A stretch of DNA of 52,235 nucleotides from a virus, in the IMG/VR virus record IMGVR_UViG_3300046003_002393, positions 1 to 52,235 of that record; one strand, given 5' to 3'. Position 1 is the first letter of the stretch. Each line of letters begins with the position of its first letter. The position numbers were made by a program, and so were the translations under genes. The notes beneath the pieces were generated by a model. It did not search any database. It was given only the letters and a program-made list of their open reading frames with translations, and was not told the origin of the DNA. Below are positions 277 to 21,332 of the stretch, piece after piece.

Positions 277-2938
277 GCAAAACGGTGAACGGTTAGCTTT
301 CAACCGTGGGGTTGTCAGCCCTCTCTCGCTCGCGAGGGTGGATGTTAAGCGCATATCTCTGAGCGCCGAAGAGCAAACCAACTGGATGCCCCGCGTGCTT
401 GGACCGATGTCCTTGCGCCCAGGACTCCAGTTCATCGGCGGGTCGCACATGCACCAAGCGGCGAGGTATCTACCCTTCGTCTTTGCGGTAACAGACACAG
501 CGATTCTCGAACTAACTCCCAACATAATGCGGGTAATGGTATCGGACATAGAGATAACCCGGTCTGCTCTCGCCACCAGCGTTATCGCAAACGGCACCTT
601 CACATCAAACTTGACAAGCTGGACGGATAGCGATGAAGGAGGCTATGCGGTTTCAGCATGGCTCACAGGCGGGTATATGTCGCTACTTGGGGATGGCACA
701 CTCGCCGCAATACGCGAACAGACAGTAACCCTCTCGGGCAGCGGGGAACACGCCTTGCGGATCGTAGTCACCCAGGGGGTGTTACTCCTGCGGGTAGGCT
801 CGACCTCAGGCGGCGATGACTATATCTCGGAAACTTCACTAGGGGTAGGCACACACTCTCTCGCCTTCACTCCCTTGGGAACTTTCTATGTGAGGCTGTT
901 TAACCGCGATGATTACCCGACACTAGTGGATTCCTGCGTAATAGACGCTGCAGGGGAGTTGACGTTGCCTACTCCGTGGGGGGCTTCCGACCTGTCGAAT
1001 ATCAGGTACGCCCAATCTGGGGACATAATCTTCGTGGCGTGCAACGGTATCCGCCAGATGAAGATAGAGCGGCGCTCAACTACTAGCTGGTCGGTAGTGG
1101 ATTACGTCCCCTCTGACGGGCCGTTCTTGGTGGAGAACTTGTCTGCGATCACGCTGACATCCTCGACCATATCGGGCACCACGACTCTGACTGCTTCCAA
1201 AGCGTACTTCAAAGCCTCGAACGTGGGGTCGCTATTCAAGTTGACCTCAGAAGACGGGCACATACGAGACAAGATTCTGAGCGCTGCGGATGTGTACTCC
1301 GATGCGATCAGAGTAACAGGACTGACGATAGACCGAAACCTCCGCATCGTAACGACAGGAGTGTGGGTCGCCACATTAACCCTCCAACGCTCGGTAGGGG
1401 CGGTTGGAGCGTGGACGGACATTACCACTTACACCACAAACCAAGACGTAGAGTACAACGACGGTTACGATAACCAGATAATCTACTACCGACTCGGTAT
1501 CAAGACTGCGGAATACACGTCAGGCACGGCGGCGATAACGCTGAGTTACCTCTACGGCTCGCTTGCAGGGGTCGTCAAGATCACCGCGTACACCAACTCA
1601 ACTACCGTTACCGCTGTGGTACTAAGCGACCTCGGCTCAGTTGGTGCCACATCAACATGGGCGGAAGGCGCATGGTCAGATCGGAGAGGTTTCCCCTCAG
1701 CAGTAGCCATCCACGAAGGCCGGATGTGGTGGGCGGGTAAAGATAAGCAGTGGGGTTCTGTCAGCGATGCGTACTACAGCTATGGTGATGAACAGATAGG
1801 CGACGCCGGTACGATCGCACGGAGTATCGGTGCGGGGCCGGTGGACACGATTAACTGGCTGGTTTCCACCGAAGGGCTAGTCATGGGCGGCCAAGGTGGG
1901 GAGTTCACCTGTAGGTCGAACAGTCTGGGAGAACCCCTCACCCCCACGAACTTCAACATCAAACGCGGCACCACCGTTGGCTCCACGGCGGTAGACCCGC
2001 TTGAGGTGGATGCCAGCGTGATATTCGTTGACCGGTCGCGCACGCGGGTATACGAACTCACCAACGAAACCTTCGGGTCTACCTACGCGATCAAGGAACT
2101 GACCGCGCTCACTCCCGAGATCGGTAGACCAGAAATAATCCGCACTGCGGTACAGCGCAAGATTGATACCCGCATCCATTGCGTGCGAAGCGATGGCAAA
2201 GTTGCGGTGATGATTTTCGACAAGCTCGAAGAAGTTAACTGTTGGGTGTTGGTAGAGACCAACGGCTTTGTGGAAGACGTGGTTGTGATTCCTGCAGTCG
2301 GGGAGGAAGATCGGGTCTACTACTCGGTAAAGCGCACGATAGATGGCGCGACAGTCAGGTACTTGGAGAAGTGGGCGCTGACCAGCGAGTGCGAAGGCGG
2401 CACGCTGAACAAACAAGCAGACTCGTTCTTGATTTATAGCGGGGCGGCTACCCAGATCATCACGGGTCTCACGCACCTGGAAGCTGAAGAGGTCGTTGTG
2501 TGGGCTGATGGTGTTGACTTAGGAACCTATACGGTGGCTTTTGGCAGCGTGACTCTTGACCGAACAGTGACCGAGGCCGTTATAGGTTTGGGGTACTCGG
2601 CCACCTTCAAGAGTACGAAACTCGCCTACGCTTCCTATCTGCATGGCAGTGCGCTCACACAGAAGAAGCGTATTGATCACATCGGCGTGATACTGCGCAA
2701 CACGCATTACCAAGGACTTCAGTATGGGGACTCGTTCGATACCCTGGACGACCTACCTCTTGTTGACGCTGAACAGATAACCCCCGCCGATACGGTATGG
2801 GGTAGTTATGACTACGACTCCGTTGAATTTAACGGAACTTATGATGCGGATACCCGACTATGCCTGAAGGCGAACGCGCCCCGCCCGTGCACAATACTGG
2901 CAGCGGTAATCAGTATGAATACCAACGAAAAACTATAA
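269..2938 (+). CDS. Tail tubular protein B (tail nozzle / stabilisation protein)
   Basis: 889 residues, TTG start at 269 behind AGGAG (256-260); it overlaps the end of tail tubular A by 8 bases, so the two are probably translationally coupled. The N-terminal stretch (ERLAFNRGVVSPLSLARVDVKRI, then QTNWMPRVLGPMSLRPGL) is typical of podovirus tail tubular B / nozzle proteins, as is RRGFPSAVAIHEGRMWWAG near residues 470-490 (a propeller-like platform segment). The family builds the hexameric nozzle at the tail tip. The length is on the large side compared with T7 gp12 (about 800). The TTG start is the only one that fits the ribosome-binding site and keeps the conserved N-terminus. Confidence 0.88.
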   Translation: MARQNGERLAFNRGVVSPLSLARVDVKRISLSAEEQTNWMPRVLGPMSLRPGLQFIGGSHMHQAARYLPFVFAVTDTAILELTPNIMRVMVSDIEITRSALATSVIANGTFTSNLTSWTDSDEGGYAVSAWLTGGYMSLLGDGTLAAIREQTVTLSGSGEHALRIVVTQGVLLLRVGSTSGGDDYISETSLGVGTHSLAFTPLGTFYVRLFNRDDYPTLVDSCVIDAAGELTLPTPWGASDLSNIRYAQSGDIIFVACNGIRQMKIERRSTTSWSVVDYVPSDGPFLVENLSAITLTSSTISGTTTLTASKAYFKASNVGSLFKLTSEDGHIRDKILSAADVYSDAIRVTGLTIDRNLRIVTTGVWVATLTLQRSVGAVGAWTDITTYTTNQDVEYNDGYDNQIIYYRLGIKTAEYTSGTAAITLSYLYGSLAGVVKITAYTNSTTVTAVVLSDLGSVGATSTWAEGAWSDRRGFPSAVAIHEGRMWWAGKDKQWGSVSDAYYSYGDEQIGDAGTIARSIGAGPVDTINWLVSTEGLVMGGQGGEFTCRSNSLGEPLTPTNFNIKRGTTVGSTAVDPLEVDASVIFVDRSRTRVYELTNETFGSTYAIKELTALTPEIGRPEIIRTAVQRKIDTRIHCVRSDGKVAVMIFDKLEEVNCWVLVETNGFVEDVVVIPAVGEEDRVYYSVKRTIDGATVRYLEKWALTSECEGGTLNKQADSFLIYSGAATQIITGLTHLEAEEVVVWADGVDLGTYTVAFGSVTLDRTVTEAVIGLGYSATFKSTKLAYASYLHGSALTQKKRIDHIGVILRNTHYQGLQYGDSFDTLDDLPLVDAEQITPADTVWGSYDYDSVEFNGTYDADTRLCLKANAPRPCTILAAVISMNTNEKL

Positions 2939-16140: not shown

Positions 16141-16455
16141 ATGAGTGATAATGTTGGAGATGATGATAGCTACCGGGACAGGTGGCCAGACCAGCACAAC
16201 AGACGGAAGAGCGACAATAAATTCTCAGTTAGTGCCGCATTTAATATCACACATATTATAGCTACTATAGGCCTGATAGTTTCCATGTTCAGTTGGGCGA
16301 CAGAAGTTAAAACCATCATCGCAACCAATACCGCCGAGATTGCTAATCTGAAAGCGGAGCGCGTGCGTGAAACCGCCGAGTTAAGAACAACCGTGCGGGA
16401 GATTGATGCTAAGGTGACGCGGCTCCTCGAGCGTGGGAATGGTGACAGGCAATGA
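16141..16455 (+). CDS. Small membrane protein with C-terminal coiled coil (lysis cassette)
   Basis: 104 residues, ATG 16141 behind GGAAG. A charged N-terminus (DRWPDQHNRRKSD) precedes one transmembrane helix at about residues 36-53 (ITHIIATIGLIVSMFSWA), followed by a heptad-patterned helix (ANLKAERVRETAEL) to the end. This topology is common for holin-associated or antiholin-like proteins in phage lysis cassettes, but no specific family is recognised. Its stop overlaps the start of the endopeptidase (ATGA), so the two are coupled. Confidence 0.75.
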   Translation: MSDNVGDDDSYRDRWPDQHNRRKSDNKFSVSAAFNITHIIATIGLIVSMFSWATEVKTIIATNTAEIANLKAERVRETAELRTTVREIDAKVTRLLERGNGDRQ

Positions 16456-16868
16456 TTAACAGTAGACAGATCGCTGACCTTCACCCCAAGGTGCAGGAGT
16501 TGTGTAAGAAATTCATTGCTGAGTGCATGGTCGACGGTATTGATGTCATCATCACTTCCACCTACCGCGACAAGGAATCGCAAGACGCGCTGTACGCACA
16601 GGGCAGGGCTACTGCTGGTGCTATCGTAACAAACGCTCATGGCGGCTGGTCATACCATAACTACCGACTGGCTTTCGACTTCGCGCCTATCCAGAATGGA
16701 AAGATCGACTGGAACAACACTGCCTTGTGGGAGAAGTGCGGGCGTATTGCTGAGGACGTTGGATTGGAGTGGGCGGGACGATGGGAGCATAATCGCGAAA
16801 TGGCGCACTGCCAATTTACTGATGGGCTGAAGATAGCGCAACTTTTTAACGGAGAAATGATCTCGTGA
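16452..16868 (+). CDS. Endolysin: M15 family L-alanyl-D-glutamate peptidase
   Basis: 138 residues. The order of motifs fits the VanY / peptidase M15 group: TSTYRDKESQDALYAQGR (substrate loop, residues about 36-53), AHGGWSYHNYRLAFDF (zinc ligands His and Asp, residues about 63-76), and EWAGRWEHNREMAHCQF (catalytic Glu-His region, with the last zinc His in MAHCQF). It cleaves the peptide stem of peptidoglycan. There is no signal peptide, so export depends on the holin. Overlaps the upstream gene by ATGA and the next small gene by 4 bases. Confidence 0.93.
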   Translation: MINSRQIADLHPKVQELCKKFIAECMVDGIDVIITSTYRDKESQDALYAQGRATAGAIVTNAHGGWSYHNYRLAFDFAPIQNGKIDWNNTALWEKCGRIAEDVGLEWAGRWEHNREMAHCQFTDGLKIAQLFNGEMIS

Positions 16869-16945: not shown

Positions 16946-17175
16946 TGGCATTTTGGGAGTGGGTAGATAAGCGGCAGATCGTCAGGCGTGGGGTGTTGTT
17001 GTTCACTCTGGTGATGACTTATCTCGCATTCAGACTCGGTTACGACTTTGCACTGGTGTCCAGGTTCGATGGGGTTGGAACCGCCGCTGTTATAGCGGCC
17101 TTCACCGCGCCCGTGGCGTACCTGCAGAAATCCGCGCTCGATTCGTACTTAGCCAACAAAGGAAAACCAGAATGA
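16945..17175 (+). CDS. Putative holin
   Basis: 76 residues from ATG 16945, which has AAAAGAGAAATA upstream; an upstream in-frame start at 16915 lacks a ribosome-binding site and would read through the small peptide gene. Two transmembrane helices are visible: residues about 16-34 (LLFTLVMTYLAFRLGYDFA) and 44-60 (GTAAVIAAFTAPVAYLQ), with a basic start and a charged tail (NKGKPE). Size and two-helix topology fit a class II holin, next to the endopeptidase and spanin genes. Its end overlaps the spanin start by 4 bases. Confidence 0.75.
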   Translation: MAFWEWVDKRQIVRRGVLLFTLVMTYLAFRLGYDFALVSRFDGVGTAAVIAAFTAPVAYLQKSALDSYLANKGKPE

Positions 17176-17651
17176 ACCCCTACGTGCTGCTTGCAGTGAT
17201 ACTCTTCCTTGCCGGCTCACATACCACTGCTTACTTTCAAGGTCGTGGAGCGCGTGACGATGAAGTAAAGGTAGAGAATGCTAAGATCGCTGCCAAAGCC
17301 GCTGCGGAGTATAAAGTAGCTGTAGATTACGGCAACAAGAAAGCTGCCGAGGTGCAAGAACTAGAGCGCTCATCTGCTGAAGTGTTAACGGAGGTATTAA
17401 TCAATGTTGCTAAAATCACTACTGGGAAGTCTTGCTTGTCTGCTGATGCTGTCAGGCTGCTCAACAAACCCACTAAGGTCTCTGGTCTGTCCCCACGTCC
17501 CCGCGACCCTGATGAAGAAAGTGCCGGAGGAGTTGCCTCCGATACCGACATCGTTAACTGGATTGCCAGAGCACAAGATCAGTATAAAAAGTGTGCTGCC
17601 AATAACAACGGGATTGTAGATATTTTAGTTAATGGCGAAAAACTAAAATAG
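17172..17651 (+). CDS. Rz: Inner-membrane spanin subunit (Rz-like)
   Basis: 159 residues. A single N-terminal membrane anchor (residues 3-21, PYVLLAVILFLAGSHTTAY) with no cleavage Cys is followed by a charged periplasmic helix (DEVKVENAKIAAKAAAEYK to EVQELERSSAEVL), the signature layout of i-spanins. It partners with the lipoprotein encoded in the +1 frame inside this gene (17404-17619). Together they fuse inner and outer membranes at the last step of lysis, which requires a Gram-negative host. Confidence 0.85.
   Translation: MNPYVLLAVILFLAGSHTTAYFQGRGARDDEVKVENAKIAAKAAAEYKVAVDYGNKKAAEVQELERSSAEVLTEVLINVAKITTGKSCLSADAVRLLNKPTKVSGLSPRPRDPDEESAGGVASDTDIVNWIARAQDQYKKCAANNNGIVDILVNGEKLK
17404..17619 (+). 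CDS. Rz1: Outer-membrane spanin lipoprotein (Rz1-like), nested in Rz
   Basis: 71 residues, ATG 17404, wholly inside the i-spanin gene in the +1 frame, with GGAGG at 17390-17394 as a good ribosome-binding site. The signal peptide LLKSLLGSLACLLML ends in a lipobox LSGC, predicting lipidation at Cys19 and a mature protein of 53 residues. The mature part is short and proline-rich (EELPPIPTSLTGLP), typical of o-spanins. The fully embedded architecture is the one known from lambda Rz/Rz1. Confidence 0.9.
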   Translation: MLLKSLLGSLACLLMLSGCSTNPLRSLVCPHVPATLMKKVPEELPPIPTSLTGLPEHKISIKSVLPITTGL

Positions 17652-17669: not shown

Positions 17670-19487
17670 TCAAAGCAAGTCAGAAATAACATCTATCGTT
17701 TCCATCATCGCGATTCTTTCGCCCAATATCCGCATACAATTTACCGCCATACTGTTGCCCAAAGCCTTGTACCGCGCTGAGTTTGATGCACCAGGTATGT
17801 TGGTATAACCGTGGGTAAGGCTAAGATTTATTGCGTATGAATTGCCGTTGTGCATTTGCTCTGGAATGAATGAACTTATGACACTCACGACAAAGCAACA
17901 CAAGGTTTGAATGCTCTGTTCGTAACTCTGGAAATTTGACCCAACTTCCGATGTGATGAACTTCATGCAGTCGTTCTTTGTAGACATGAACTTTGTGGCA
18001 TCGCTGACAAGTTGCTCGATCTCTTGTCCAGATACGTCTACAGACTTGCTTCCATATCCGTGATGAGAAGAATTGTTGATGTTCTGTGGTAATGCCGCCC
18101 CTCCAACAATGGTGTTTGTCCCCAACAAGGTGTGCAGTCTTACATTTAATTGAACAAAATCGTCTAGTTGAATAGGCAGGCGACACCATTTTTGTTTGTC
18201 CGCAAGATTGACAGACAAGAGCAACTTTCCTTGATTGTGTATTTCCAGAGTTCGTGCCTCTAAATTTAGAAGCGCAGACACCTCCGCAAGTTCGGAAGTC
18301 TTGTGATTGCTTTGTCGTGAATTCACCTCCGCAAATGATGCAATTTTTTGTGATTCGCTTACTACGGCATTGCCAGCAACATTTGGCAACTTGGGACATT
18401 GCGTTTCCGCAAGCGCATTGGTTTTTTGATGGTCTGAGCATACGCGAAGTATAACAGTTTTCGTTACCTCAGGAAACCCCTGCAATCTTTCGCACTCAAG
18501 CGGAGTTAATCGGCGTACTCGCATTTGTGAGCAGACAGCCATTTGGTTATCACCAGGTTCTTTGCGAATAGTCCCTGTGTGCTCTTCGTAAGCAACCGCA
18601 TGAACATCCGTCTTGGTTAGCGTATAGGATGACCCTGTATCATCGTAGCCAGTGCCATTCCCGCCATTCTCAGGTGCGCGTCCGATTGTGTTTCCAGCTA
18701 AGGCATAAGTCGGTACAAACAGCGGTGCGCCCTCGTTGATATGCTGATTTTCCAATCCTTGTTTATCTCCGAAGTGTGCGTTTAACGTGCTTGCGATTTC
18801 AGCCGGCCATTTCTTCACTGGCAAGATATGTCCACAGGCTGCGTCTTGCGCTCCGATACTAACGCCAGTGCGCGCTCCAATTGTTCCGGCAAATTCTTGC
18901 CCCTTACTTCTGCTCGGCGGAGGATTCCCGCACAGGCTTTCGGAGTCAAAAAGAACTGCGGCTGCACTTCGCCAGTCTCCAAGACATCCGATAACGAACA
19001 CACGCCTTCGTCTTTGCGGGACGGCTCTAGGGTGCTCATGTGTTCTGCTGAATTGAGCATCAAGAACTCGGTAGGCGAACCCATAGCCGAGTTGCCCCAA
19101 CCCTCCAAGGAAGGTTCCAAAATCCCTTCCGCCGTTACTCGACAAGACCCCCGGTACGTTTTCCCAGACAATCCATTTCGGCTTATATCGATCAGCAATT
19201 GCGAGGTAGATGAGCATGAGGTTGCCACGCGGGTCATCCAATCCTTTTCGCAAACCTGCGACTGAGAATGATTGACAAGGGGTTCCGCCGACAAGAACAT
19301 TGATAGTTGCATCAGGCCACTCCTTAAATTTAGTCATGTCGCCTAGGTTCGGGACGCTTGGGTAGTGGTGCGCCAACACTTTGCAAGGAAAAGGTTCTAT
19401 CTCTGAAAACCCGATAGGGTTCCAACCAAGCGGATGCCAAGCGCATGTAGCTGCTTCGATTCCACTGCATACCGAAAGGTAATTCAC
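17670..19487 (-). CDS. C5 cytosine DNA methyltransferase with an in-frame 219-codon insertion
   Basis: 605 residues, GTG start at 19487 overlapping the upstream stop (GTGA). Motif I-like VCSGIEAATCAW (residues 6-17), catalytic PCQS (Cys71), ENVP (109-112), motif VIII QRRRRVFVIG, a target-recognition segment, motif IX RLTPLECERLQGFPE ending at residue 340, and motif X ARYKALGNSMAV near the C-terminus. Between IX and X, where family members run straight from GFP into the YTNIPGASNSARY-type segment, residues 341-559 are unrelated sequence that overlaps an HNH endonuclease gene in another frame. Without it the enzyme would be 386 residues, a normal size. Likely protects phage DNA from host restriction. 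Whether the insert is translated through, spliced or inactivates the enzyme is not known. Confidence 0.88.
   Translation of the reverse strand: MNYLSVCSGIEAATCAWHPLGWNPIGFSEIEPFPCKVLAHHYPSVPNLGDMTKFKEWPDATINVLVGGTPCQSFSVAGLRKGLDDPRGNLMLIYLAIADRYKPKWIVWENVPGVLSSNGGRDFGTFLGGLGQLGYGFAYRVLDAQFSRTHEHPRAVPQRRRRVFVIGCLGDWRSAAAVLFDSESLCGNPPPSRSKGQEFAGTIGARTGVSIGAQDAACGHILPVKKWPAEIASTLNAHFGDKQGLENQHINEGAPLFVPTYALAGNTIGRAPENGGNGTGYDDTGSSYTLTKTDVHAVAYEEHTGTIRKEPGDNQMAVCSQMRVRRLTPLECERLQGFPEVTKTVILRVCSDHQKTNALAETQCPKLPNVAGNAVVSESQKIASFAEVNSRQSNHKTSELAEVSALLNLEARTLEIHNQGKLLLSVNLADKQKWCRLPIQLDDFVQLNVRLHTLLGTNTIVGGAALPQNINNSSHHGYGSKSVDVSGQEIEQLVSDATKFMSTKNDCMKFITSEVGSNFQSYEQSIQTLCCFVVSVISSFIPEQMHNGNSYAINLSLTHGYTNIPGASNSARYKALGNSMAVNCMRILGERIAMMETIDVISDLL
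17811..18467 (-). mobile_element. HNH-encoding insertion in the methyltransferase gene (657 bp)
   Basis: Boundaries are inferred from where the methyltransferase homology stops (Glu340 codon 18468-18470) and resumes (Gly560 codon 17808-17810). The insert is an exact multiple of three and has no stop in the methyltransferase frame. Nearly all of it (17821-18441) is an HNH endonuclease gene in a different frame of the same strand. It lacks intein blocks (no Cys/Ser-GxTP start, no HN-C end) and leaves almost no room for a group I intron core outside the nuclease gene. Confidence 0.75.
17821..18441 (-). CDS. HNH homing-type endonuclease nested in the methyltransferase gene
   Basis: 206 residues, ATG 18441, TAG 17821-17823. 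Three Cys-rich zinc-binding modules come first (CACGNAM..CCWQC, CIICGG..CGGVCASKF, CQSCGQ..FCSIKC), then the HNH domain: WTRDRATCQRCHKVH, LHEVHHIGSW and HSNLVLLCRECHKFIH. This matches zinc-finger HNH nucleases that often occupy phage introns or intergenic spots. It uses the same strand but another frame than the methyltransferase. No strong ribosome-binding site is seen before the ATG, so expression may be low or coupled to translation of the host gene. Confidence 0.88.
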   Translation of the reverse strand: MLRPSKNQCACGNAMSQVAKCCWQCRSKRITKNCIICGGEFTTKQSQDFRTCGGVCASKFRGTNSGNTQSRKVALVCQSCGQTKMVSPAYSTRRFCSIKCKTAHLVGDKHHCWRGGITTEHQQFFSSRIWKQVCRRIWTRDRATCQRCHKVHVYKERLHEVHHIGSWVKFPELRTEHSNLVLLCRECHKFIHSRANAQRQFIRNKS

Positions 19488-19675: not shown

Positions 19676-19920
19676 CACATTTTCCTTTCATAAGTATGCA
19701 GTTCACAGTGAGTCGCGATAGCCGCTGACATGCCGTTAGGTGAGTTAACCAGTATCTCCGATATCTGATCTTTATTGCAGAGCCAGTAGACGCTGGTTAC
19801 TTCGGGGTGAACTACCCGTCGATACTCCGTCGAGATTTCCCACGCCACACACACTACTGCAAGCCCAATTAACGCCCCGACCAATACCAGCGGGTCAGGT
19901 ATCCGTTCCAAAAATTTCAT
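19675..19920 (-). CDS. Small single-pass membrane protein
   Basis: 81 residues, ATG 19920 behind AAAGGGGG; start overlaps the helicase stop (ATGA) and the end overlaps the DksA-like gene. One transmembrane helix at about residues 10-28 (PLVLVGALIGLAVVCVAWEI) followed by a soluble tail with two cysteines (LCNKD, THCELH). No family recognised. Placed in the replication operon rather than with lysis genes, so a role in host takeover or exclusion is possible but unsupported. Confidence 0.7.
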   Translation of the reverse strand: MKFLERIPDPLVLVGALIGLAVVCVAWEISTEYRRVVHPEVTSVYWLCNKDQISEILVNSPNGMSAAIATHCELHTYERKM

Positions 19921-21332
19921 GCTTGCCCCCTTTTCATTGCTTCCAATAAACAGTCCATGATTCCCTTTTTGTTATCTATTCTCTCCAGCACCAACTCGTC
20001 TATCGTACCCCGTGCGATGATGTTGTGGACGAACACCGAACGCTTGTACCCAGATTGCTCTTGTCTCACAGGGCCAATCCGTTCGAGAATCTGCAATCTA
20101 TTCTCCAGATTCCAGTCATGTGAGAAGAACACGAGTGTTCGCCCACCGTGCTGCAGGTTCAGCCCATGCCCGGCCGAGGCGGGATGCGCGAACAATACAG
20201 GTATCTTGCATTCGTTCCAATCCTTCTGGGTCTGCGGGTCGGCATCCAGCACGCGCCCTTGGGGAAAAGCCTTGAGTAACCTTACGAGGTCGCTCTTGAA
20301 GTGGTATGCCACCAACACCGGTTCGCCCATCGCTTCTTCGATAATCTCTTCGAGCGCCAGAATCTTGACATCGTGAACCTCCTTCCAGTCTTTAGCTTTA
20401 GGGTGAAAGTCGTTGTCAGCATCCGGGTCGAGGTACACCGCGCCGCTGGCGATCTGCAGTAACTTCTGTGTCTTGCTGGCCGCGTTGTGCGCTTCGACCT
20501 GGCGCTCACCCAACTTGATGAACATTTCCTTCTCCATCTCCCGGTACGTCTTGCGCGCCTTCGGTGGGAGGTCGATGTAGATGTTGTTCACGATCGGGTC
20601 TTCCAAGTCGAACCAATCCTTCATGTCGATGGTCAGGCACACATCCCTCAACCTCTCCTGAATCTCGGCTTGCGCGTGCGGTAGCGGAATCAGTGGCCCC
20701 TCTCCGTACTCCGGTGGGCGGAACCAGCGTTGCTTGAAGGCTTCGTAGCTCCTGCCCAGACGCTCCCCCGCATCCACGAACCACAACTGGCCCCACAGGT
20801 CGAGTAGCCCGTTCGGTGATGGCGTTCCGGTGAGGAGGTCGATCTTCTTGATCTTGGTGTGTGCTATCCTGCCCAACGCTTGCGCCCGAACGCCTCCCTG
20901 CTTCAAGCGGAACGACTTTAGTTTAGTGCTCTCGTCGATGATGACGTGCTTGAACGGCCAGCGGTCGCCGTAATAGTCGATAAGCCACACCAGATTCTCG
21001 AAGTTGATCGTGTACACGCTGGCGTCGTACTTCAACGCTCGCCGGCGCTTATCCTCATCGCCCATGATGGGCATGACGGTTATCTGGCTGAGGTGCGACC
21101 ACTTCTTCGCCTCTTCAGGCCACGTTGTAACCGCCACGCGCTTCGGCGCTACGACCAGAACGGGACTGTCCTCGCCAGCGAGAAAGCGGATATCTATGGC
21201 AGTGTATGTCGATACCGTCTTGCCTGAACCCATACCTGACCAGGTACACCCTCGGTCGATAGCGAGTTGGTGGTTCACGATCATGCCTTGGTACTCCCTT
21301 GGGGTGTAGACTGTGCGGATGGAGGGATTCAC
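19917..21332 (-). CDS. SNF2-type DEAD/DEAH helicase
   Basis: 471 residues; GTG start at 21332, overlapping the upstream stop, behind AGGGAG. Helicase motifs in order: Q-like YTPREYQ (residues 9-15), Walker A GMGSGKT (33-39), VLVVAPKRV (motif Ia), DESTKLK as the DEAH-box variant, LLTGTPSPNG (motif III), then C-terminal VLFAHPASAGHGLNLQ (V) and ERIGPVRQEQ (VI, with Arg fingers). This compact SNF2-like type is common in phage replication modules beside family A polymerase and VRR-NUC nuclease, where it is thought to act in replication or recombination. Confidence 0.92.
   Translation of the reverse strand: MNPSIRTVYTPREYQGMIVNHQLAIDRGCTWSGMGSGKTVSTYTAIDIRFLAGEDSPVLVVAPKRVAVTTWPEEAKKWSHLSQITVMPIMGDEDKRRRALKYDASVYTINFENLVWLIDYYGDRWPFKHVIIDESTKLKSFRLKQGGVRAQALGRIAHTKIKKIDLLTGTPSPNGLLDLWGQLWFVDAGERLGRSYEAFKQRWFRPPEYGEGPLIPLPHAQAEIQERLRDVCLTIDMKDWFDLEDPIVNNIYIDLPPKARKTYREMEKEMFIKLGERQVEAHNAASKTQKLLQIASGAVYLDPDADNDFHPKAKDWKEVHDVKILALEEIIEEAMGEPVLVAYHFKSDLVRLLKAFPQGRVLDADPQTQKDWNECKIPVLFAHPASAGHGLNLQHGGRTLVFFSHDWNLENRLQILERIGPVRQEQSGYKRSVFVHNIIARGTIDELVLERIDNKKGIMDCLLEAMKRGQA

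Follow-up and report, generated by a model that had tools for sequence, protein, structure and literature searches.

Organization of the locus

The window, that is, the whole stretch of DNA analysed, is a virus record of 52,235 bases, and its minus strand carries a C5-cytosine methyltransferase gene with an in-phase insert that encodes an HNH endonuclease in another reading frame. The features of this locus are as follows.

17670-19487, minus strand: methyltransferase ORF of 605 codons
18468-19487, minus strand: N-terminal 340 codons of the C5-cytosine methyltransferase, up to motif IX (LQGFPE), recognized by PF00145 and TIGR00675
17811-18467, minus strand: insert of 657 nt, stop-free over 219 host-frame codons, delimited by frame analysis and by the empty site in the relative L003
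18442-18467, minus strand: leader of 26 nt, from motif IX to the HNH start codon
17821-18441, minus strand: HNH endonuclease ORF of 206 aa with zinc ribbons and an HNH core, recognized by PF01844 and phrog_144
17811-17820, minus strand: tail of 10 nt, from the HNH stop codon to the resumed methyltransferase
17670-17810, minus strand: C-terminal methyltransferase segment with motif X (YKALGNSMAVN), assigned by comparison with L003 and by phrog_23296

The N-terminal part of the methyltransferase matches PF00145 (E 2.7e-43) and TIGR00675 dcm (E 4.9e-44), motif X is matched by phrog_23296 (E 5.5e-8, residues 570-598), and motifs I-IX and X of C5-cytosine methyltransferases are all present. Following the insert, the enzyme resumes as GYTNIPGASNSARYKALGNSMAVN, which carries motif X. 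The insert-free relative L003, whose DNA is 75-92% identical to that of the window across the matched pieces, reads LQGFPDNYTNVAGLSNSARYKALGN, and the window reads LQGFPE, then 219 codons, then GYTNIPGASNSARYKALGN; the edges of the insert are confirmed because L003 has the empty site. Relative to the host gene the HNH ORF lies in the third frame, and the host frame is +1 of the HNH frame. Over the 657 nt the host frame is free of stops, the unused third frame has 14 and the HNH frame has only its own terminator. The initial annotation, made from the sequence alone, had described an HNH ORF in another frame of an in-frame methyltransferase insert at 17811-18467, a host frame without a stop over 219 codons, and a methyltransferase intact to motif IX and continuing to motif X. 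All three statements are confirmed, the first by the ORFs, profile matches and L003, the second by the stop count, and the third by PF00145/TIGR00675, L003 and phrog_23296.

A second viral contig, IMGVR_UViG_3300046004_000733, is 100% identical to the window over 7 kb. Elsewhere in the window, the ORFs at 17172-17651 and 17404-17619 (plus strand) presumably represent an overlapping spanin-like pair, comprising an inner-membrane protein of the Rz type and a nested lipoprotein ORF, and the adjoining ORF at 16452-16868 is taken by us to encode a peptidase-like endolysin.

The HNH nuclease and the family of inserts

The HNH protein of the window matches PF01844 (E 2.2e-9) and phrog_144 (E 2.8e-15), contains the catalytic His and Asn residues and zinc Cys pairs of the PF01844 HNH fold, and has PDB 5h0m as its nearest solved relative by profile (E 1.3e-13). 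Across 26 aligned HNH proteins, H162, H163, N179, H188 and four Cys residues are invariant.

Searching viral contigs with an alignment of the HNH core revealed 80 related loci, of which the closest non-identical ones are likewise located in methyltransferases, again with the host frame open. Using full-length HNH alignments, first 8 and then 23 loci (the earlier 8 included) were obtained from viral contigs, and in 23/23 the host frame is stop-free over the HNH match, all within methyltransferase genes. The junction coincides with the QGFP end of motif IX in 22 of the 23, the exception being L192 with the altered motif LQTVG; two loci, L177 and L193, reach the contig edge inside the HNH. Sixteen distinct intact members were retained, namely the window, L093, L172, L173, L174, L176, L181, L182, L184, L185, L186, L187, L189, L190, L192 and L194, leaving out the copies L001, L175, L177, L183, L188, L191 and L195 and the partial L193; adding L193 and L109, the latter from the HNH-core search, brings the number of distinct members to 18. 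HNH identity to the window copy is 36-54% across members, and the HNH gene starts 26 nt into the insert, as in the window, in 12 of the 16 intact members and after 20-38 nt in the remainder. Not every host gene looks intact: upstream of the insert, the methyltransferase of L172 is split between two ORFs, and motif IX of L192 is altered.

L095:2699-3433 is an in-frame fusion, possibly left over from recombination, in which an unrelated segment precedes the C-terminal half of the hidden HNH and motif X. Among viral contigs, a single-protein HNH query and a host-frame peptide query retrieved nothing beyond the identical contig; the plasmid search gave no match for the window HNH and only distant ones for that of L093, and none was found in the genome contigs searched for the HNH.

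Probability of an open host frame

The initial annotation had reasoned that a random frame of this length would be open only about 3 in 100,000 times and had inferred selection from it. This number is too small, because the sequence already encodes an HNH protein, which leaves the host frame stop-poor. When the HNH protein was held fixed and its synonymous codons were permuted or redrawn, the probability of obtaining no host-frame stop in the window was 0.058 with permuted codons, 0.085 with HNH codon usage and 0.0057 with phage codon usage, with a mean of 2 to 4 stops expected in the host frame and 13.7 in the third frame. The earlier figure thus gives way to 6-9% given the HNH protein, or 0.6% under phage codon usage. 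The window copy alone proves nothing about selection, and chance is ruled out at the level of the family only.

With each HNH protein and its codon set taken as given, the joint probability of an open host frame across the 16 intact members is 10^-18.8, which overstates the case because the members are related but are treated as independent. Individually, it is 0.0035-0.021 in L176, L173, L192, L186, L174 and L189, 0.06-0.09 in the window and L181, and 0.15-0.45 in the remaining eight. The strongest cases are AT-rich, such as L176 (31% GC, P 0.0035, 33 third-frame stops), followed by L173 (P 0.005, 26 such stops), L192 (P 0.013, 28) and L186 (P 0.016, 29), and GC-rich members contribute little (L093 0.41, L190 0.45), the GC content of the HNH gene ranging from 31% to 63% across the family. 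Codon sharing at identical residues, estimated from six members, is 47% versus an expected 39% and hence not far above expectation. HNH ORFs of 180 aa or more that do not belong to the methyltransferase set served as a control, and each of the 32 contains at least 4 stops in the corresponding frame. That an HNH gene merely happens to leave the host frame open is plausible for the window taken alone, and GC-rich members reach probabilities as high as 0.45, but with the joint value over 16 members and none of the 32 outside ORFs open in that frame, this explanation is rejected for the family and is extremely improbable. Selection for an open host frame is accordingly supported by the 23/23 loci and by the joint probability, kinship being ignored in the latter.

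In L109, a TGA lies inside the HNH frame while the host frame is still open. Recoding is unlikely, because the four neighbouring genes contain no in-frame TGA; none of them ends in TGA either. The nuclease of L109 looks dead with persistence of the host frame, as judged from a single contig in which a sequencing error is possible.

Properties of the host-frame peptide

Outside the methyltransferase ends, Pfam and NCBIfam models revealed no family in most of the 17 host-frame peptides, with scattered one-member matches, the best of which was to a DNA polymerase III beta model (1/17 members, E 1.1e-4). Comparison of 15 members (L187 was omitted as near-identical to L184) showed host-frame similarity above the synonymous null with z 20.5, and likewise for the unused third frame with z 10.1, the z being higher in the host frame than in the third frame in 81 of 105 pairs. 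Shared ancestry explains part of the host-frame similarity, because the unused frame also exceeds the null. In three closer pairs, the changed host codons are synonymous and nonsynonymous in ratios of 10:91, 13:82 and 10:85, and the changed HNH codons of the same pairs in ratios of 43:53, 40:50 and 38:54. With such weak constraint on the host-frame amino acids of these three pairs, selection would act mainly against stops. Thus, the identity of the host-frame residues seems to matter little and the absence of stops seems to matter; these comparisons give no clear sign of host-frame conservation that goes further than the avoidance of stops. AlphaFold prediction gave a low-confidence model, with a mean pLDDT of 56.9 for the whole enzyme and 44.6 for the insert segment, and in both runs the insert was predicted, with low confidence, to begin and to end in a strand (340-350 and 550-559, or equivalent).

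Such limited conservation of host-frame residues, together with the methyltransferase of L172 that is split upstream, would also fit an open frame that is needed for purposes other than methylation, either preventing polarity on downstream genes or feeding the nuclease with frameshifting ribosomes. However, motif X and the downstream segment still form a normal C terminus in 17/17 aligned members, and the codons changed 3' of the insert between the window and L003 comprise 14 synonymous and 5 nonsynonymous changes, which may predate the insertion. We regard a role unconnected to methylation as unlikely, and translation through the insert into a complete methyltransferase is preferred.

Search for an intron or an intein

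Covariance models of Rfam at the gathering threshold identified no family in the window or in six other member loci, and scanning the window at E up to 10 returned chance-level matches only. Compared with dinucleotide shuffles (z -6.9) and synonymous permutations (z -4.4), the insert of the window has the more stable fold, which could be taken to favour an intron that belongs to an unrecognised self-splicing class, with its core overlapping the HNH coding sequence and removed from the mRNA by splicing. The HNH coding sequence also contains nested perfect inverted repeats of 14 nt (17885-17898/18307-18320) and 12 nt (17924-17935/18241-18252), and the insert borders carry a direct repeat of 10 nt with 9/10 identity, at 17803-17812 in the 3' flank and at 18449-18458 in the leader. 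This near-repeat resembles what the consulted portion of PMC11855218 describes for the ShiLan domain, a mycobacteriophage insert discussed below whose start resembles its 3' flank. However, the stability is ordinary for this genome, as 20 of 258 other windows of 657 nt are more extreme, and the consensus fold of seven aligned inserts amounts to only -5.9 kcal/mol, lacks covariation support and has no conserved structure matching the 14- and 12-nt repeats. Moreover, a spliced intron would have no need of the open, in-phase host frame that every member maintains. Group I and group II introns are hence rejected, in line with the original remark that the insert has too little space for a group I core, and an unrecognised splicing class is very unlikely.

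A degenerate or unrecognised intein, spliced as a protein, would agree with an insert that is in frame and open, and genuine inteins do hide HNH genes in another frame, as found in two terminase large subunits (L135:1848-4376 and L196:1100-3640, Intein_splicing E about 1e-11), one of which belongs to Synechococcus phage S-EIVl (KJ410740). Against this, none of the 17 host-frame segments matches any intein model, and the aligned junctions exhibit no consistent Cys/Ser/Thr nucleophiles and no terminal His-Asn. The absence of intein blocks stated in the initial annotation is borne out, an intein is rejected on these grounds, and a degenerate form is highly improbable. The terminase inteins share with the window family a zinc-ribbon HNH in another frame of a stop-free host-frame insert and differ from it by the intein splicing domain encoded in their host frame.

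As a separate observation, the SNF2-type helicase gene at L003:286-2595 contains an intein-like insert with an HNH at 1619-2266 (plus strand) in another frame (phrog_3377, E 1.1e-41). Pfam and NCBIfam intein models gave no match to this insert, and the helicase of the window (19917-21332, minus strand) is without it.

Putative promoter and expression of the nuclease

Within the leader, an extended -10 promoter-like site can be recognized.

18448-18456, minus strand: candidate extended -10 element TGTTATACT, 6 nt before the HNH ATG

Sites with at least 8 of 9 matches to TGnTATAAT, ending exactly 6 nt before the start codon, occur in 8 of the 16 members. With the host amino acids held, the probability of the -10 site is 0.001-0.028 in L182, L093, L189, the window (0.02) and L172, and lies at 0.09-1.0 for the 11 remaining members; the site is absent or poor in several, namely L176, L184, L190 and L194. 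A generic sigma-70 promoter scan reported nothing at the window leader. By established promoter geometry, a -10 element at 6-nt spacing places the transcript start at the A of the ATG; the message would therefore begin at the A of the HNH ATG, and a leaderless start is predicted.

Distribution and transfer of the insert

When loci were collected by methyltransferase similarity, 138 of 160 had the empty site, two carried the element (L002, which is the window copy, and L197, which is the L174 locus), one had another long linker and 19 were uncalled. The HNH genes of L184 and L187 have 12 differences in the 519 nt compared, and the N-terminal parts of their methyltransferases have 106 differences in 564 aligned nt (19%); over everything that can be aligned between the two, leader and flanks included, identity is 93%. 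A near-identical insert in divergent methyltransferases therefore points to recent horizontal transfer of this insert. Among the 11 members with comparable N-terminal parts, HNH identity exceeds methyltransferase identity in 36/55 pairs, with a correlation of 0.50, and the descent of the insert family, as read from these sequences, is a mix of vertical and horizontal inheritance.

Relation to known elements

The initial annotation had proposed that a translated-through nuclease insert would be a distinct type of mobile element. The claim of novelty does not stand, as the same architecture was published in 2025 for mycobacteriophage methylases (PMC11855218, in the portion consulted). According to that portion, the ShiLan domain of the mycobacteriophage methylase gp65 is a stop-free insert of 202 residues, carries an HNH ORF in the third frame, has a patchy distribution and no intron or intein found, and its authors proposed leaderless translation; the architecture is also treated in the part of PMC9957025 that was available. 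Insofar as these excerpts describe it, the window family is like ShiLan in having a stop-free, in-phase insert in a phage methylase with the HNH in another frame and no intron or intein signature, and in its horizontal spread between divergent methylases (here L184/L187 and the 36/55 pairs) and patchy distribution. It differs in the enzyme, a C5-cytosine rather than a DPPY-type methylase, in the site, in the HNH sequence and in the start codon, which is ATG after 26 nt here and GTG after about 18 nt in ShiLan. Examination of ShiLan gp65 (JN020143) showed a DPPY-type methylase with an HNH different from that of the window family, hence these are the same kind of element but separate families. 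In the literature on out-of-frame HNH inserts, with preprints outside its scope, no case in a C5 methyltransferase was found.

Further nested genes occur in mycobacteriophages. Applejack gp54/gp55 is a nested HNH in a methylase, according to the portion of PMC12613952 consulted. Tasp14 (NC_028784), Lamina13 (NC_024143) and Optimus (NC_041844) have an HNH ORF in another frame of a methylase ORF, and the Lamina13 record annotates both genes. These three differ from the window family in being of the DPPY type, in having the host frame at +2 rather than +1 of the HNH frame and in the site of insertion, and the mycobacteriophage nested HNH shares about 30% identity with member L098 across 132 aa. 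Intron-less homing genes of the T4-related mobE type comprise a nuclease without its own intron or intein, located in or beside a conserved gene. The mobE type breaks the host gene into two ORFs, whereas the window family keeps the frame open.

Model and implications

The site, the frames, the family-wide open frame, the patchy occurrence and the recent spread of one copy are seen directly. They are, in our judgement, quite probably explained by a mobile homing-endonuclease insert that is neither an intron nor an intein and is tolerated through read-through translation. From these sequences we infer, in addition, that the insert is read through, that the nuclease cleaves for homing and that the methyltransferase is active. 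The probable target of the HNH enzyme is the conserved stretch at motif IX in methyltransferase genes that lack the insert, and repair off the occupied copy would install it there. The host gene would be spared by a nuclease gene written stop-free and in phase for the host frame, with the ribosome translating some 210 additional residues after motif IX before the motif X helix completes the methyltransferase. The nuclease itself probably has a message of its own, leaderless and driven by the -10 element in the 26-nt leader. Thus, the original notion of a translated-through nuclease insert holds as regards the open frame in relatives and the absence of an intron or intein signal, and fails in the rarity assigned to a single copy, which was overstated.

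Homing genes are normally thought to depend on an intron or an intein to spare the host gene, and a family of open-frame inserts across divergent phage contigs represents another solution to the same problem. The zinc-ribbon HNH genes hidden in inteins suggest a shared strategy, that is, use of the other frame of whatever tolerates read-through. The ShiLan work left the question whether the open frame is meaningful, no test of it against chance having been found in the portion of PMC11855218 consulted; measured here, the answer is yes. In this family, nature has also repeatedly maintained two open frames in the same piece of DNA, and close relatives with the empty site provide a control. It is somewhat likely that dual-coded homing inserts constitute a third general in-gene lifestyle without splicing, in which a nuclease gene selected for readability in the frame of the host, with its own promoter located at its first base, would reside within a host enzyme that is enlarged and may remain functional.
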